Assembly (NCBI GenBank): GCA_018645405.1
Contig: JABGOQ010000044.1
Span: 1 to 64,000, forward strand
From: Anaerolineae bacterium
GTDB lineage: Bacteria > Chloroflexota > Anaerolineae > Anaerolineales > Villigracilaceae
Direction: 5' to 3'
Length of the DNA stretch: 64,000 nt
A program made the position numbers and the translations under genes. Within the stretch, counting starts at the first letter, position 1; the number at the start of each line of letters is the position of its first letter. The notes beneath the pieces were generated by a model. It searched no databases. It saw only the letters and a program-made list of their open reading frames with translations, and was not told the origin of the DNA. Shown one piece after another: positions 51,706 to 62,716 of the stretch.

Positions 51706-52923
51706 TCACTCCCTCAAAGCATCCGCCGGTTTCAGCTGTGCTGCGCGGCGAGCGGAGAACCAACTCGCCAAGCCTCCGCTGATGATAGCGGAAGCAGATG
51801 CAATCAGCACCGCATTCAACGGTAATTGCGCAGGTAAGGTAGCGGGAGAAGTTTCTGGTCCCGCCCCGAAATCGGGGGTGGTGCCTGCTAGGAGGGTCAT
51901 GTATATTGCCATTTGTCCCAGAATAAGCGTTGAGAGCCAGCCCAGTAAAATGCCAAGAAGTACGCCCAATAAGCTGAGAGCAATGCCTTCGGTGAGGAAT
52001 AATTTGACCACATCTCGGGTTTGCCAGCCGATGGCTTTCATCACGCCGATTTCTCTGGCGCGCAATTGAATTCCGGCGTCAAGCGTAACGCCTGTTAAGA
52101 GTAGCCCGCCTAAAAGCGCAACCAACGCGGCGACTCCGGCAAAGCGGTCGGAGACTTGAGCGATTCCGCCCATGACCTGCACAATGCTTTGCTCGGTGAG
52201 CGCGGAGATTTCTCCCAAACGGGTTTCACTCTCGGTGACGACGTTTTCAACACTTGTGGCTTCGTCCACACGGAGGTAGATTTGGTTGATTTCGTCAGCC
52301 GGTAAATTCGCAAGGGATTGGGCATCTGCCAGGGGGAGGTAGAAATTGGCAGAAGATGCTGAGTTTCCACCGGGAACGTCCACAACGCCGACCAAGTTGA
52401 ATTCACGTCCGCCAATGCTGATGGGGGCACCCGGTTTCAGCCCGTAAAATGCGGCGTAATGGCGATCCACAAGCGCAACGTCCCCTTCATCCGGCTCAAA
52501 AAAACGCCCTGAGACAATCCAATCTTTAACTTGCATAGGTCCAACGCCTTCCACCAAAAGATCGATGCCCAAGAGGGTCTGATAGCTGGCGGCGGCGAAA
52601 TCCCAGAGCAGAAGACCGCCGCTGACCGCGCCCACACCATCCAGATTGCCGAGAGAATTTGCCTCGGCGAGGGTGAGGGTGGCAAGCCCAAAAGGTTGGC
52701 GCACGCCGCGCGTGGTTTGGGCGGTTGCGCCAGACTGCGTTGTGGGGCGGCTGATGAGAATGTCGGCTCCGATGCCCGCGAGGGGCGCACGAGCGGCTTC
52801 ACGAAAAGCGTCTCCCGCCGCGATCAGGGCGATATAAAGTGCCACGCCGAGCGCAACGCCGGTGAGCGTGCCGAGCGCGCGCCCGATACGGTGGCGGAGT
52901 TCGGCGATGAGATGGGCAGTCAA
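51706..52923 (-). CDS. ABC transporter permease, FtsX/MacB family
   Basis: 405 residues from the TTG at 52923, which overlaps the upstream stop (AATTGACTG) and has GGAG seven bases before; the longer open frame runs into the previous gene. One membrane helix (about 15-37), a periplasmic MacB-type core (about 45-270), and three C-terminal helices with FtsX domain (GEIGVMKAIGWQTRDVVK is GVMKAIGWQ type coupling region). It pairs with the ATPase at 53540 and the second FtsX permease at 54192. Confidence 0.85.
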   Translation of the reverse strand: MTAHLIAELRHRIGRALGTLTGVALGVALYIALIAAGDAFREAARAPLAGIGADILISRPTTQSGATAQTTRGVRQPFGLATLTLAEANSLGNLDGVGAVSGGLLLWDFAAASYQTLLGIDLLVEGVGPMQVKDWIVSGRFFEPDEGDVALVDRHYAAFYGLKPGAPISIGGREFNLVGVVDVPGGNSASSANFYLPLADAQSLANLPADEINQIYLRVDEATSVENVVTESETRLGEISALTEQSIVQVMGGIAQVSDRFAGVAALVALLGGLLLTGVTLDAGIQLRAREIGVMKAIGWQTRDVVKLFLTEGIALSLLGVLLGILLGWLSTLILGQMAIYMTLLAGTTPDFGAGPETSPATLPAQLPLNAVLIASASAIISGGLASWFSARRAAQLKPADALRE

Positions 52924-53351
52924 TTTGTCTCCTGATCTAGCACGGTGCGAAGGTCGTCCATTGTCCACGTGCCGCTGGCAACGATGCCCGTGCCGCCGTC
53001 TTGCGGGAAGCTGTAAAATTTTGTCGCGACCCCGTCAATCTCAAATTCATCTTCGCCGTTGATGTAAATGGCAATGGGCGTGTGACCGTCAATCCCGTAT
53101 TTTTCAGCGAAGGCTACCCCCACGTCTGTGTCGAAATCGTAGCGCGTGTAGCCCACTTTTTCGCCGTATTCTGCCGCGAGAGCTTCCACTTCTTCGACCG
53201 CCGAGCGGATTGGCGCGTGGTTGAGCGCAATCACTTCGACTTGTACCGCCGCGTCTGGATATGTGGATGGCAAGGCTACGGGAGCACCGCCGCAGGCTGT
53301 GAGGGCGAGGGCGAGAAGGGTGAAGACGATAATTAATTTTGTGTTTTGCAT
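52920..53351 (-). CDS. Lipoprotein with thioredoxin-like fold lacking CxxC
   Basis: 143 residues from the ATG at 53351, which is preceded by AGGAGA. Lipobox LTAC gives Cys20. The mature part has a thioredoxin-like order: VEVIALNHAPIRSAVEEVEA, then VGYTRYDFDTDVGVAFAEKY and the cis-Pro-like GHTPIAIYI. The CxxC position is replaced by APIR, so it would be a redox-dead or binding module. It sits between permease and ATPase genes and may be a periplasmic subunit of the exporter. A longer in-frame start is rejected because the lipoprotein signal begins at 53351. Confidence 0.65.
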   Translation of the reverse strand: MQNTKLIIVFTLLALALTACGGAPVALPSTYPDAAVQVEVIALNHAPIRSAVEEVEALAAEYGEKVGYTRYDFDTDVGVAFAEKYGIDGHTPIAIYINGEDEFEIDGVATKFYSFPQDGGTGIVASGTWTMDDLRTVLDQETN

Positions 53352-53431
53352 GATTTTGTTCTCCTGAGTTTTTATTGGATGGAAGGCGGGACGTGCGTGG
53401 GGTGGGCTTGGTTCCGTTTGAGGGGCAAGAT

Positions 53432-53533
53432 GTGCGCTGCATCCGCTTTTGGATGCGTTGCACATCGGGTCTGGTAGAAGCGCGTGTTGGTTAGACCCGA
53501 ACTGCAACGCATCTGTCAGATGCAGTGCAGTTC
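53432..53533. repeat. BIME-like pair of inverted hairpins
   Basis: Hairpin 1 (53432-53463) pairs GTGC and TGCATCC with GGATGCG and GCAC. Hairpin 2 (53499-53533) pairs AACTGCA and GCATCTG with AGATGC and TGCAGTT. The two are related to each other in inverse orientation and are joined by TCGGGTCT and AGACCCGA. The element lies between the ATPase and lipoprotein genes of one operon, where it could protect the upstream mRNA segment. Confidence 0.65.
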
Positions 53534-56895: not shown

Positions 56896-57584
56896 CAGTC
56901 ATTCTCCTGATAAGCATAGCCTACGCCGCGTTTCGTGCGAATTAACGTTGCGCTCGTCATTCCTAATTTTTGACGCAGGTTGCTGATATGGGCTGTGACG
57001 GTCTCTTCCCCAGCTTCATCGCTGTATCCCCAAACTTCTTCCAGCAAATGGCTGCGGGTAAATGCCCACCCCGGATTGCCCATCAAAATTTGCAAAAGAT
57101 TAAACTCGGTGGGAGTTAGCTCCATGATTTGTCCATCAAACTTGACTTCCCGCCGGTTGGTGTCCATTTTCAGGCGAGGCCCTCCCAGCGTAGCGGGCAC
57201 GAGCGGATCACTATAATGGTAGGCGCGGCGGAGGAGGGCTTTGACTCGGGCGATCAACTCTGTTGGGCTGAATGGCTTGGTCAAATAATCGTCGGCACCA
57301 ATTCCCAACCCGATGACTTTATCGGTGTCTTCAGCACGGGCGGTGAGCATAATAATCGGTACCGTGGAATTCTGTCGGATACGGCGGCAGAGTTCCAATC
57401 CATCGAAAGCACCGGGCAACATGATGTCCAAAATAGCTATATCGGGCTGCTGCTGTAGAAAGGTTTTTTCTCCTGCAGAACCGTCAATGGCTGTAAAAAG
57501 GGTGAAGTTCTCCCGTTCGAGATAGAATCGCACCATTTCTGCCGTTTTGGTTTCATCTTCTACCAGTAGAATTTTAAATGTCAT
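56895..57584 (-). CDS. OmpR/PhoB-family response regulator
   Basis: 229 residues from the ATG at 57584; the open frame begins 16 codons earlier without similarity. Receiver domain with acidic pair in VEDE, phosphorylated Asp in IAILDIMLPGAFDG (about 51), Thr in IIMLTARAEDT, Lys in YLTKPFSPTEL. Winged-helix output domain about 125-228 with LTPTEFNLLQILMGN. It forms a pair with the kinase at 55528. Palindrome site F lies 187 bases upstream of this start, with a block 23 bases before it, so it belongs to the shared regulon. Confidence 0.9.
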   Translation of the reverse strand: MTFKILLVEDETKTAEMVRFYLERENFTLFTAIDGSAGEKTFLQQQPDIAILDIMLPGAFDGLELCRRIRQNSTVPIIMLTARAEDTDKVIGLGIGADDYLTKPFSPTELIARVKALLRRAYHYSDPLVPATLGGPRLKMDTNRREVKFDGQIMELTPTEFNLLQILMGNPGWAFTRSHLLEEVWGYSDEAGEETVTAHISNLRQKLGMTSATLIRTKRGVGYAYQEND

Positions 57585-57770
57585 TATTTGGTCTCGTTCG
57601 CCCTGATGATCTTTACTCGACCGAAAACGCATTAGATTTATTTAGTAAAGATAAACTGGGATGAAATTTTAAACCGTGGCTTTATTGTACCTGTTTTGTT
57701 TTCTCCCACCATGAGGAGATTATAGAGAGAATGATAAGAAAAACACAGCGCGATTAGGCGTATCTTTTTC

Positions 57771-57786
57771 TAGGCAATTTGACGTA
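57771..57786 (-). promoter_or_regulatory. Shared palindrome site F (response regulator operon)
   Basis: TAGGCA-ATTT-GACGTA matches the left half of the consensus and part of the right, and GCGCGATTAGGCG lies 23 bases in front. It is upstream of the response-regulator gene (57584, minus strand). Confidence 0.5.
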
Positions 57787-57820
57787 TAAAAAAAGGGCAT
57801 GGAATTCAAGTTCCATACCC
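57787..57820 (-). terminator. Terminator (minus strand)
   Basis: GGGTATGGAA and TTCCATGCCC (minus strand) form a 10-bp stem with one wobble, followed by a run of seven T. It terminates transcripts coming from 58375 before the response regulator promoter. Confidence 0.8.
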
Positions 57821-57882
57821 TCTTCTTTGTTACAAAATTAGGGGAGTTATTTCACGCCCTCCAGATGCAATCCCGTTTGTTG

Positions 57883-57975
57883 CTAAGTATTCATCTTGAT
57901 TGATTTATGATAGCGAATCGTTTTCGCAGTTGTCCCAGTGCGAGTAGCAAGCTCCTGGATTTGCTTCAGAATCAT
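57883..57975 (-). pseudogene. Truncated MerR-family regulator
   Basis: From an ATG with GAAAGG upstream, 30 codons read MILKQIQELATRTGTTAKTI and RYHKSIK, the helix-turn-helix and start of the wing of MerR proteins (normally IGELAxRTGVTxxTIRYYExIGLL). The frame stops at TAG right in the wing, so the metal or ligand-binding part is missing. The gene is a remnant in a copper/redox region, where MerR proteins of the CueR type are expected. Confidence 0.7.
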
Positions 57976-58000
57976 CCTTTCGTAAAGGTCAAAATAAGAA

Positions 58001-58375
58001 TTATTCCTCCAGAAAAACACCTATCTTTTCTTGCATCGTTTCGCCTGGCTGTTCTCCCAAGCCTTGCCAAAGAACTTCGCCCTCTGGATTCAATAGTATA
58101 AAAGACGGATGCCCTTGAAGACCAAAATACTGAAAAACGGGTCTCCCTTCAGAGGAATTCGCATCAATCCGTCGAAATTCAATCTCATTGCCATATATTT
58201 CTTCAAGCCCGTTCACGACAGGCAGCATACGCACTCAAGGCACTCAACCATCGGTGTAGAAAAACAAAAATGTTGGACGATCTGGAGCCGGTGTAATCGG
58301 GAGAGCACCGCCTCCGCAGGCACTCAGCATAAATGCTGCAATGCCGAGAACTAAAATTAAAAACCGAGAACGCAT
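58001..58375 (-). CDS. Thioredoxin-like lipoprotein with UGA at both CxxC positions (candidate UxxU selenoprotein)
   Basis: A 124-residue frame on the minus strand, read through two in-frame TGA codons at 58244-58246 and 58235-58237. The N terminus is a lipoprotein signal with LSAC and Cys20. After FLFFYTDG comes U44-V-P-U47 and then VRMLPVVNGLEEIYG, the place and context of the catalytic CxxC and the conserved Pro of thioredoxins. RRIDANSSEG, the cis-Pro in GHPSFILL and a GEVLWQGLG strand complete the fold. Decay is possible, but two Cys-to-TGA changes exactly there and no other damage favour selenocysteine. It is preceded by site D and followed by a terminator. Confidence 0.7.
58207..58223 (-). 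other. Candidate bacterial SECIS hairpin
   Basis: On the mRNA, GCCUGU and ACGGGC pair in a 6-bp stem (one G-U) with loop CGUGA, which has the GU needed in the apical loop of bacterial SECIS elements. The loop GU lies 18 bases after the second UGA and 27 after the first, in the usual range. It was found by eye; folding tools should test it. Confidence 0.4.
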
Positions 58376-58460
58376 AGAGAATTCTTTCACTTTATTTATC
58401 TATCAAGCAATCGTATCTAGATTGCATTGGAATCCTAAGAGAAATTAGGCGTGAATACTA

Positions 58461-58476
58461 GGGGCAGAATCGCCTA
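58461..58476 (-). promoter_or_regulatory. Shared palindrome site D (UxxU thioredoxin)
   Basis: GGGGCA-GAAT-CGCCTA fits 11 of 16 positions of site B, and AATTAGGCG lies about two turns in front, matching site F. It is 86 bases upstream of the UxxU thioredoxin start. Confidence 0.55.
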
Positions 58477-58515
58477 TATCCCTAGATGTGTCCAGACATC
58501 AAATATCTATCAGTT

Positions 58516-60225
58516 TTATCTTTCCCTTAGAGGCAAAATCACCACCACTCTTGCCCCCTCCTCCGGTGCGGCGTGGATTTTCAGCCGCGCGCCAATCAAC
58601 TCGGCACGCTCGTAGAGTCCCAGCAAGCCAAAATGTCCGCCAGGAGCAAATTCGGCGGGGCTTTCGGGCGGCTCGAAGCCGCGCCCGTTATCGGAGATGG
58701 TTAATGTAATCTGTTCTGGCGCAAATTCAATTTTTAGCGTGGCTTGCGTTGCTTGTGCGTGACGTTGGATATTGTTTAAGGCTTCTTGCGCCATACGGTA
58801 GAACGCTAATTCCACATCGGGGGGGAGACGATGCTCAGGTCCCAGACGCTGAAAATTAACAGAAATTGCGGCAGTGTCCTGTGCCTCGTGGGTAAGCATA
58901 TCCAGCGCGGCGACCAAGCCTAAATCATCGAGGTAGAGCGGGCGCAAAGCGCGCGTCAGACGGCGCAAATCGTCAATCGTCTGTGTCGTCATCCGCTGGA
59001 TTTCATCCAATTGCTCCACCGCGCGCCCTTCCTCCACATTCATTTGAGCAAGTTGGACACGTTGATTGAGCGCGATCAAGTCTTGAATGGTTTCATCGTG
59101 CAGTTCGCGCGCCAAACGACGGCGTTCATCTTCCTGCCCAGTCGTGATCGCGCCAATATAGCTGCGCAACCCTTTCTGGGAAGCTTTGACTTTTTCTGTG
59201 AGATAGATAAGCGTGTTTTGGAGATGGGTGATTTCTTCGATGCCCCCAACCGATTCTTGAATGGTATTGAAATCTCCCCAAGCCAGCTCACGGGCACGGG
59301 TTTCGAGATTTTGGAGCGGTTGTACGATTTGACGTGCGCCAAACCAGAGCGCAACTAACGCCAGCAAAAGCACGGGCGCGAGTGTGAGGGGGGTGATGAG
59401 AGTGGTGGTGAGCGTGCGGTTTGCGACGGCTGCCCAAGGTTCTTCGAGAATAAGCATCCAGCCGAGCGGGGCGACGGGGGCATAGGCGATGACGTGTTCG
59501 CCGTCATCGCTTTGGATATAGGTTGAGCCACTTTCTCCGCGCAGAGCGGCATCTAAATAGGTGGGCGGTGTTTTTTCAACACCCGCCTGTGATATGAATA
59601 CAACTTGCCCATTTTGGTCGACAAGACTGATCGTAGCTTGCTCTTCTGCGCCAAAGGCTTCTTTTAGGGTATTGCTGGCTAAGTTGGACGGAGTAAATGC
59701 GCCAACGACAATCGGCGCATCAGGGCTAGTCGTAGCTGTGATGAAAATGATGCGCTCATCCGTTCTGGGGTTTATATATAACGAAGAGAAGGAGGGTTCT
59801 GCATTTGCTTGCTCTAAGGCTTCTTCAAGAACAGGATGAATAGATGTCGTAGTCCAATTGCTCTTTGCGAGTAATTTCCCTTCTGATGAAAAGACTGCCA
59901 AACCAGCATCAAAATCTGCGTTGAGTGCAGATGATGTTGCCAAAACATGTTTCGCTGGATGATCGTCCGATGTGCGCAAGGATAGTCCATAAATCGCAGA
60001 TGCGCGGCTGTTGAGCTGCTCACTTAACGCACTGGCGGCGGTGCGGACGGCGCGCTCGTCCAGCACACCGACCATTACTTTCATTTCTTGTTGGTGTAAT
60101 GCAAAGCTGCCGAAGGTCGCTATAAAGAGCAATAGAATGATGGGCAAAATTACCCACGCAAAAAGCTGCAAGGTTAATCCACGCCAACGGGAGCCGGGAA
60201 TAGGAAGATGCGGAGGTTTTGTCAT
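58516..60225 (-). CDS. Sensor histidine kinase, NarX/LiaS type (HisKA_3)
   Basis: 569 residues. Helix 1 is about 17-40, an extracytoplasmic double-Cache-like sensor (about 45-265) contains GKLLAKSNW and GQVVFISQ strands, helix 2 is about 275-297, then HAMP. The His is in RLARELHDETIQDLIALNQR, the HisKA_3 signature, and the ATPase has EALNNIQRHAQATQATL, SDNGRGFEPP and GHFGLLGLYERAEL. It phosphorylates the NarL-type regulator upstream, to which it is joined by a 4-base overlap. The Cache-like domain suggests a small-molecule signal. Confidence 0.9.
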   Translation of the reverse strand: MTKPPHLPIPGSRWRGLTLQLFAWVILPIILLLFIATFGSFALHQQEMKVMVGVLDERAVRTAASALSEQLNSRASAIYGLSLRTSDDHPAKHVLATSSALNADFDAGLAVFSSEGKLLAKSNWTTTSIHPVLEEALEQANAEPSFSSLYINPRTDERIIFITATTSPDAPIVVGAFTPSNLASNTLKEAFGAEEQATISLVDQNGQVVFISQAGVEKTPPTYLDAALRGESGSTYIQSDDGEHVIAYAPVAPLGWMLILEEPWAAVANRTLTTTLITPLTLAPVLLLALVALWFGARQIVQPLQNLETRARELAWGDFNTIQESVGGIEEITHLQNTLIYLTEKVKASQKGLRSYIGAITTGQEDERRRLARELHDETIQDLIALNQRVQLAQMNVEEGRAVEQLDEIQRMTTQTIDDLRRLTRALRPLYLDDLGLVAALDMLTHEAQDTAAISVNFQRLGPEHRLPPDVELAFYRMAQEALNNIQRHAQATQATLKIEFAPEQITLTISDNGRGFEPPESPAEFAPGGHFGLLGLYERAELIGARLKIHAAPEEGARVVVILPLRER

Positions 60226-60884
60226 ACTAAATCAGGCGACAACCAACCCAACGAGATCGCGTGCATCACCGCTTCGGTGCGGCTGGCGGCTTGGAGTTTG
60301 TTAAAAATATGCGCCAAATGCCCTTGCACCGTGCGGTCGCTGATACCAAGTTGCACGCCAATCGCCTTATTCGTAAAACCTTTTCCGACCAAGGTTAGCA
60401 CTTCCATCTCGCGCTTGGTTAGTTTTTCGGCGGGCAGAGTCTCTTTATCCTGCGCAATCTGTGTCATCATTTTTGCAAGAAGATTGGCATCCAATGCAGA
60501 ATTACCAGTATGGACATCTCGCACGGCACGAATAATTTCGCGCGGAGCGGCAGTTTTCAAGACATAGCCATTCGCCCCCGCCTGCAAAACCGCCGTCACA
60601 TAAGGCGCGTCATCATAAGCAGTTAAAACGAGCACCCCAACCTCGCGTTGATTGGCGCGCACCCAGCGCGTGACCTCGATACCTGTTGCTTTTGGCATTT
60701 GGATATCCAAAATGGCGACATCCGGCTGATGCTCAGCAATCAGCGTTTTTGCCATTTCGCCGTCATCCGCTTCGGCGATGACCTGAATATTCTCGGCTTG
60801 CTCCAAAAACTGACGGATGCCAGCCCGCACAACGGCATGGTCATCTGCTAACAAAACTCGGATAGAAGAAGTTTGTGTTTTCAT
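60222..60884 (-). CDS. NarL/FixJ-family response regulator
   Basis: 220 residues. Receiver with acidic pair in LLADDHAVVRAG, phosphorylated Asp in VAILDIQMPKATG (about 58), Thr in VLVLTAYDDAPYV and Lys in GYVLKTAAPREI. The LuxR-type helix-turn-helix is LTKREMEVLTLVGKGFTNKAIGVQL. Such regulators bind inverted 7-2-7 sites; the TAGGCA-N4-TGCCTA palindromes of this region have that geometry, so this protein is a candidate for their regulator. No such site is seen directly upstream of its own start. Confidence 0.9.
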   Translation of the reverse strand: MKTQTSSIRVLLADDHAVVRAGIRQFLEQAENIQVIAEADDGEMAKTLIAEHQPDVAILDIQMPKATGIEVTRWVRANQREVGVLVLTAYDDAPYVTAVLQAGANGYVLKTAAPREIIRAVRDVHTGNSALDANLLAKMMTQIAQDKETLPAEKLTKREMEVLTLVGKGFTNKAIGVQLGISDRTVQGHLAHIFNKLQAASRTEAVMHAISLGWLSPDLV

Positions 60885-62224: not shown

Positions 62225-62716
62225 TTATTCATAAAAGCTGTTTTGAGTAGTGGAAATCCACCACTGAAAATCACGTTCTTCCGCTCCCCAAGATGTTTTG
62301 ATGAACGCCAGTACAGCATAGATATCCTCTTCACTCAGCGTTTCACTAAACGCAGGCATATTCCCATTTTCAGGCAACCCGCCATCAGAGATAATCTGGA
62401 GCAAGAGTGTGTCAGGGTGATGCCAAGTATGTCCGTTGCTGTCATGTGGTGGCGGGAGCAGTGTCCCGTCTGGTTGGGATATTTTCCAATTGGGAACGCC
62501 CTCTAAATCTGCGCCGTGACAAGAGACGCAGTATTGATTGTAGGTTACTTTGCCCTGAGCGATTTCCTCCGCGTCCAGCACAGGCACAGGTGGGACAGTT
62601 ATCCCGTTGATCGTCACCGCTTCGCTCTTAAGTGTGGCTTGCTTCTGCCAAAAGAGTATCCCCCCAACTGCAACAACGATGACTCCAAAAAAGATCAATC
62701 TAAGTCGTTTGTTCAT
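62225..62716 (-). CDS. Membrane-anchored cytochrome c
   Basis: 163 residues. A signal anchor at about 5-23 is followed by one cytochrome c domain with haem motif CVSCHGADL (about 63-71), a His-rich stretch NGHTWHHPDTLL, and distal Met in NGNMPAFSETLSEEDIYAVL. The C terminus WGAEERDFQWWIST is a short tail after the last helix. It is likely to be an electron carrier partner for oxidases or the DUF2085 protein gene next to it, from which it is 17 bases apart on the same strand. Confidence 0.87.
   Translation of the reverse strand: MNKRLRLIFFGVIVVAVGGILFWQKQATLKSEAVTINGITVPPVPVLDAEEIAQGKVTYNQYCVSCHGADLEGVPNWKISQPDGTLLPPPHDSNGHTWHHPDTLLLQIISDGGLPENGNMPAFSETLSEEDIYAVLAFIKTSWGAEERDFQWWISTTQNSFYE

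Follow-up and report, generated by a model that had tools for sequence, protein, structure and literature searches.

The window analysed here, a 64-kb stretch of DNA (64,000 nucleotides) from an Anaerolineae bacterium, contains a thioredoxin-like reading frame with UGA codons at both positions of its CxxC motif, which raises the question of whether this gene is broken or encodes a thioredoxin with a pair of selenocysteines (Sec, U). We consider it very likely, with a probability of about 0.93, that the product is a Sec-Sec thioredoxin, a real double selenoprotein, and that the gene is not broken. Insertion of Sec at the two sites is inferred; it has no experimental evidence, and no protein or selenium measurement is available. 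The features of the gene are as follows.

58001..58375, minus strand: UxxU thioredoxin lipoprotein gene, 124 residues via readthrough of two UGA codons (translation, Pfam, AlphaFold2 and 63 nonredundant UxxU homologues)
58316..58375, minus strand: N-terminal signal with a lipobox ending at Cys20 (LSAC) (sequence; Cys20 invariant in the 45-sequence alignment A2)
58244..58246, minus strand: first UGA codon, read as Sec44, first CxxC position (translation, homologue alignment)
58235..58237, minus strand: second UGA codon, read as Sec47, second CxxC position (translation, homologue alignment)
58106..58111, minus strand: thioredoxin-fold residues His89-cisPro90 (GHP; across A2, His89 does not vary and Pro90 hardly varies)

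Reading frame and fold

The minus-strand translation from 58375 to 58001 reads MRSRFLILVLGIAAFMLSACGGGALPITPAPDRPTFLFFYTDG, UGA, VP, UGA, VRMLPVVNGLEE, and continues through GHPSFILLN to a C-terminal FLEE and the stop codon. The lipobox signal is thus followed in order by FLFFYTDG, TGA, VP, TGA and VRMLPVVNGLEE; the thioredoxin domain is complete and has GHP as its cis-Pro site, and the translation revealed no further stop or frameshift in this frame beyond the two TGAs. Plain ORF calling returns just a 77-residue C-terminal piece (58001-58234) without the active site. The initial annotation, made from sequence alone, had described a thioredoxin-like lipoprotein in which TGA occupies both Cys positions of CxxC, with no other lesion, and of which usual gene callers would report only the C-terminal 77 residues, and both statements held.

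With TGA read as Cys, the Pfam families Thioredoxin_2 and Thioredoxin were matched above their cut-offs; apart from these, only TraF was matched, and no AhpC-TSA family. The AlphaFold2 model is a confident thioredoxin fold (pLDDT 94.4) whose best Foldseek matches are ordinary thioredoxins. The criteria for the thioredoxin fold (PF00085/PF13098) are therefore met by profile match, CxxC position at the helix N-terminus, cis-Pro and fold. Membership among the lipoproteins is likewise supported by the LSAC signal with its lipobox Cys, Cys20 being invariant in 45 sequences; lipidation itself is inferred from the sequence. Both UGAs align with the redox CxxC of homologues, which meets one criterion for a selenoprotein.

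When all six frames of the window were scanned for U..U flanked by 40 clean codons on the 5' side and 60 on the 3' side, one single place was identified, namely the UxxU gene. TGA terminates 11 of the 45 ORFs of at least 200 residues in the window; it is therefore an ordinary stop in this genome, and the code is not reassigned.

Two further frames nearby were recorded. Directly after the UxxU gene, 57883-57975 (minus strand) holds the 30-codon start of a MerR-type regulator (MILKQIQELATRTGTTAKTIRYHKSIKMNT, then a stop codon) that appears truncated. A thioredoxin-like lipoprotein without CxxC, a weak match (31%) to the UxxU protein, is encoded at 52920-53507 (minus strand) beside ABC transporter genes.

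Homologues, phylogeny and selection

Among 60 related genomes, three others have both TGAs at the same places (G006, 63% protein identity; G017, 43%; G044, 36%), and the G006 protein is identical in sequence to that of Candidatus Desulfolinea nitratireducens (L120). An order-wide profile search of 400 genomes gave 15 best matches that all contain two TGAs (E<=3.1e-36; the next match was at 1.4e-17), and the 48 best places of a class-wide search (396 genomes) were all two-TGA as well. The search profiles had Cys at both motif positions, so that Cys homologues were not disfavoured. Unlike these profile searches, a scan with the DNA pattern F-[FY]-T-D-x-UGA-x-P-UGA selects for UxxU; applied to one genome per GTDB species, it yielded 72 loci, of which 48 are family members, all from Chloroflexota (Anaerolineae, Ardenticatenales, Chloroflexales and unplaced MAGs). 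The remaining 24 loci, scattered across many phyla, were rejected as chance matches because they lack a thioredoxin frame. A further selenoprotein criterion, conservation of UGA across several species, is thereby met. Two loci, L070:1147-1878 and L149:4467-5198 (minus strand), encode a UxxU protein that is extended at the C-terminus to 244 residues. Two copies of the UxxU gene (L099 and L127) are present in Kouleothrix aurantiaca COM-B.

In a tree calculated after masking of the two motif columns, 67 UxxU sequences group together in a single clade (support 89/92), in which no Cys member was sampled; only 96 columns were available, and many inner forks are weak. The sister of this 67-row clade is a pair consisting of a CPFC protein and a UPVC protein (L188, L193). 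Two other UxxU proteins, L038 (G044:C128; WUPTU) and L086 (G070:C380; WUTTU), belong to a separate thioredoxin lineage outside the clade, and UxxU therefore arose at least twice. Across the 67-row clade the second UGA (UGA2) is never a Cys codon, though a single substitution would suffice for Cys. In the region 3' of the UGAs, dN/dS lies between 0.05 and 0.28 in nearly all computable pairs (0.54 for one very close pair; dS saturation left other pairs without a value), and this region is thus under purifying selection.

These results bear on the alternative that the gene is a pseudogene, i.e., an ordinary CxxC thioredoxin with two Cys-to-stop changes. A single gene taken alone, with two stops and no selB in the draft assembly, would be compatible with such decay. 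Against it, the same two TGAs recur without any other lesion in species whose proteins are as low as 26% identical, the sequence 3' of the stops is under purifying selection, and the hairpin described below is conserved and covarying. The pseudogene reading, which the initial annotation had kept as its alternative, failed on these points and is all but excluded.

A SECIS-like hairpin within the coding region

A short hairpin was identified downstream of both UGAs by folding, conservation and the bSECIS model.

58207..58223, minus strand: SECIS-like hairpin, arms 58223-58218 and 58212-58207, loop CGUGA at 58217-58213

The distance to the loop start is 17 nt from UGA2 and 26 nt from UGA1. The hairpin reads GCCUGUCGUGAACGGGC in the present gene, and the commonest versions in the family are GCCCAUCGUGAAUGGGC or close variants. 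The bSECIS model asks for a loop of 3-9 nt with G in the first two loop positions, a distance of 16-37 nt from the UGA, an upper stem of 4-16 bp and an MFE <= -7.5 kcal/mol (PMC13188914). With its 5-nt loop (G second), 6 bp and distances of 17 and 26 nt, the window hairpin meets the criteria, and its 21 nt fold at -8.1 kcal/mol; the energy limit is passed by 49 of the 63 family hairpins.

Conservation of the hairpin exceeds what the protein sequence would impose. Of 63 nonredundant genes, 60 contain its five-pair core, against 3.8 +/- 1.8 expected from synonymous codon resampling (z=31), and 61 use GTG for the Val in the loop, as opposed to 36% elsewhere. We counted 19 compensatory cells versus 4.3 in shuffles, three of the six pairs being changed on both sides, and pairing falls from 96% to 48% when the partner is slid by one base. 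The sequences are related by descent, and these counts are not independent trials. The wider 67-nt region is not more stable than its shuffles in thermodynamic folding (z=0.00), and the case for the hairpin therefore rests on conservation and synonymous resampling. An Rfam scan of 57500-59000 gave no match.

Of 28 UxxC relatives, 24 have the hairpin at the corresponding site, those of Chloroflexota at the same distance, compared with 3 of 17 CxxC relatives; the latter set contains a few distant thioredoxins as well as at least one frame that is a chance match. Most simply, and in our view probably, the hairpin was already present in a UxxC ancestor, and the second Sec codon arose later within the hairpin's working range.

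It might also be argued that in vivo Sec is inserted at only one UGA, with termination or Cys predominating at the other, so that the working protein would be largely UxxC- or CxxU-like. In favour of this, the UxxC relatives share the hairpin at the same distance from UGA1, and UGA1 alone may represent the older arrangement; UGA2 is also near the lower spacing limit (17 nt within a range of 16-37). Against it, both codons are inside the published range, and UGA2 has not changed to a Cys codon anywhere in the 67-row clade despite the one-base route. We consider this alternative very unlikely and retain the double-Sec reading.

The CPFC protein beside the UxxU clade (L188, genome G776) has kept a CGUGG loop and all hairpin pairs but one, and its genome contains SelB. 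It is possible that this gene is a Sec-to-Cys reversion with a SECIS remnant.

Selenocysteine machinery

The genome encodes selA (E=2.9e-131), tRNA-Sec (selC) with anticodon UCA, and selD, itself a selenoprotein gene with a UGA near the N-terminus. No selB was found in this draft assembly, yet it is present in 8 of 8 genomes of the same genus and in 51 of 60 relatives. Matches to TIGR00475 in the own genome were rejected as SelB, since the three examined resemble IF-2, TypA and LepA and the two best are EF-Tu-sized.

In G006, the gene order is an SRAP gene, selB, a coiled-coil gene and a Nuo-like gene. Contig C157 of the own genome starts inside the Nuo-like gene, two places upstream of selB in the Desulfolinea order, and contig C102 has other genes after SRAP, where selB would follow; the coiled-coil gene of the G006 neighbourhood has no match in the own genome either. 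Loss of selB through an assembly gap appears likely and is not proven.

A SelB wing domain was identified in 53 of 60 UxxU genomes, and three of the other seven have partial selB matches: G656 and G504 contain most of selB without the wing domain (the G656 copy lies at a contig edge), and G696 has only an 80%-identical edge fragment. In G706, a single contig of 5.6 Mb with the UxxU gene L171, no selB was found, and this remains unexplained. SelB is absent in 8 of 15 genomes chosen for TGA-free homologues.

The UGA codons could alternatively be decoded as another residue, by a reassigned code or a suppressor tRNA. UGA occurs only where relatives have Cys, as a code with UGA as Cys would also give. 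Against this, 11 of the 45 long ORFs in the window have TGA as their stop, SelA, SelD and tRNA-Sec(UCA) are present in the genome, and the hairpin tracks the UGA-containing relatives and is mostly missing in Cys relatives. This explanation is all but excluded, leaving Sec as the preferred residue at both codons.

The selenoprotein reading of the initial annotation is therefore supported, nearly every computational test named there favouring Sec. The check for selA, selB, selC and selD found all but selB, as set out above; the check for Cys/Sec replacement in homologues showed TGA kept at both positions; the SECIS check found a hairpin that is present and conserved; and a search for decay, in the form of close relatives with ordinary Cys codons, found none within the UxxU clade.

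Comparison with known selenoproteins

Like the UxxC selenoprotein thioredoxins and thiol:disulfide interchange proteins (PF00085, PF13098), the UxxU protein combines a thioredoxin fold with Sec at the first motif position; unlike them, its family has Sec at the second, resolving position too. The 2026 inventory lists the PF00085/PF13098 thioredoxin families as UxxC with one Sec (PMC13188914), and among its 119 prokaryotic selenoprotein families (May 2026), UxxU occurs only in Prx-like, NF041115 metal-binding and FmdB proteins (PMC13188914).

SelL contains two Sec two residues apart, with one SECIS serving both (PMC3316567), and UxxU was found in a bacterial Prx-like family in GOS data (PMC2398784). 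SelL and the bacterial Prx-like UxxU proteins (PF00578/Prx-like 2) share with the present family a Sec pair in UxxU spacing; they are peroxiredoxin-like, whereas the present family comprises lipoproteins of about 125 residues with thioredoxin matches and an in-coding hairpin. In Pfam, the UxxU protein has no AhpC-TSA domain, and Prx-like membership is not met. The comparison with SelL-type proteins made in the initial annotation thus held in part, as an analogy only, the present protein belonging to a separate family of thioredoxin lipoproteins. NF041115 metal-binding and FmdB-type proteins also have a bacterial UxxU motif with two Sec (PMC13188914); none of the NCBIfam selenoprotein models, NF041115 included, matched the UxxU family at E<=0.01.

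No paper linking Chloroflexota with such a UxxU thioredoxin was found in the open-access literature searched, and judged by this literature and the 2026 inventory the double-Sec thioredoxin is probably undescribed. Few natural proteins with a Sec pair are known, and the natural advantage of diselenide redox chemistry is an open question. Scores of species hold both Sec codons despite the single-base route to Cys, and because they do so in a small thioredoxin whose reference fold is well known, this question can be tested directly. The UxxU family is also a natural test of one bacterial SECIS serving two UGA codons. In a bolder joint reading, which we think likely, Chloroflexota widely possess obligate double-Sec thioredoxins that would use diselenide chemistry in the envelope, a single in-coding SECIS, probably from a one-UGA UxxC ancestor, now decodes two UGAs, and L038 and L086 represent independent UxxU proteins.

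Genomic neighbourhood and possible function

Upstream of the UxxU gene, the window contains the following genes.

58516..60225, minus strand: sensor histidine kinase, upstream of the UxxU gene on the same strand (Pfam)
60222..60884, minus strand: LuxR-type response regulator (Pfam, locus comparison)
62225..62716, minus strand: cytochrome c-type protein (Pfam)

Across 70 loci, the same kinase type is near the UxxU gene in 13, cytochrome c-type genes (relatives of the 62225..62716 protein) in 21 and a heavy-metal-type P-ATPase in 19; fewer loci have DsbA-like, DUF3105, rhodanese, DUF1573, PCYCGC or cupredoxin genes, and two-component regulators are also nearby. The counts cover about 6 kb around the gene; as the loci are cut unevenly, they are lower bounds, and no background rate stands behind them. 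The neighbourhood is varied, most loci lacking any one named partner. A TlpA/ResA-like membrane selenoprotein with H[ST]WUxxC (one UGA) is encoded near the UxxU gene in L034, L074, L075, L076 and L079. On the own contig beyond the window, a DsbA-like UPYC selenoprotein (L040:7721-8500) is followed by a CcdA-like (DsbD_TM) gene (L040:8494-9117), and a COX2-cytochrome c protein is encoded there as well.

The product is predicted to be an extracytoplasmic, lipid-anchored thioredoxin with the catalytic pair Sec-x-Pro-Sec. One in-coding SECIS in the usual range of both UGAs would allow SelB and Sec-tRNA(Sec) to decode two codons 9 nt apart, the efficiency for both being not known. The protein would then alternate between diselenol and intramolecular diselenide forms, serving as a rapid extracytoplasmic thiol/selenol oxidoreductase of low potential. 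Recharging would probably occur by a CcdA/DsbD-type membrane relay, and copper-handling or cytochrome-related Cys proteins may be the clients. Diselenide state, electron donor and clients are all inferred.

TlpA of Bradyrhizobium reduces ScoI and COX II (PMC6696091). Like TlpA, the UxxU protein is putatively a membrane-held extracytoplasmic thioredoxin, and UxxU genes are often near P-type ATPase and cytochrome genes; TlpA, by contrast, uses Cys and belongs to a different thioredoxin subfamily, and the clients of the UxxU protein are not known. From the neighbour genes and the TlpA precedent we therefore infer an envelope redox relay for copper or cytochrome proteins. The balance tips slightly against this copper/cytochrome (respiratory) role as things stand, and copper is its weakest step: copper as the P-ATPase cargo is a guess from a His-rich N-terminus and the neighbours.

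A rival to the functional part only is that the double selenoprotein scavenges peroxide or metal and does not reduce protein disulfides. Selenol pairs can bind metals and react with peroxides, and a heavy-metal-type P-ATPase, cupredoxins and PCYCGC proteins are among the neighbours. Against this, the protein has the CxxC position, the cis-Pro and the fold of a thioredoxin, and TlpA-like, DsbA-like and CcdA-like redox genes are nearby. Scavenging is thus unlikely, and a thiol/selenol oxidoreductase remains the preferred reading.

The own contig also encodes, beyond the window at L040:13285-13842, a DUF1573-like protein with a UGA right after Cys (GC-U-PP), which is likely a further selenoprotein.
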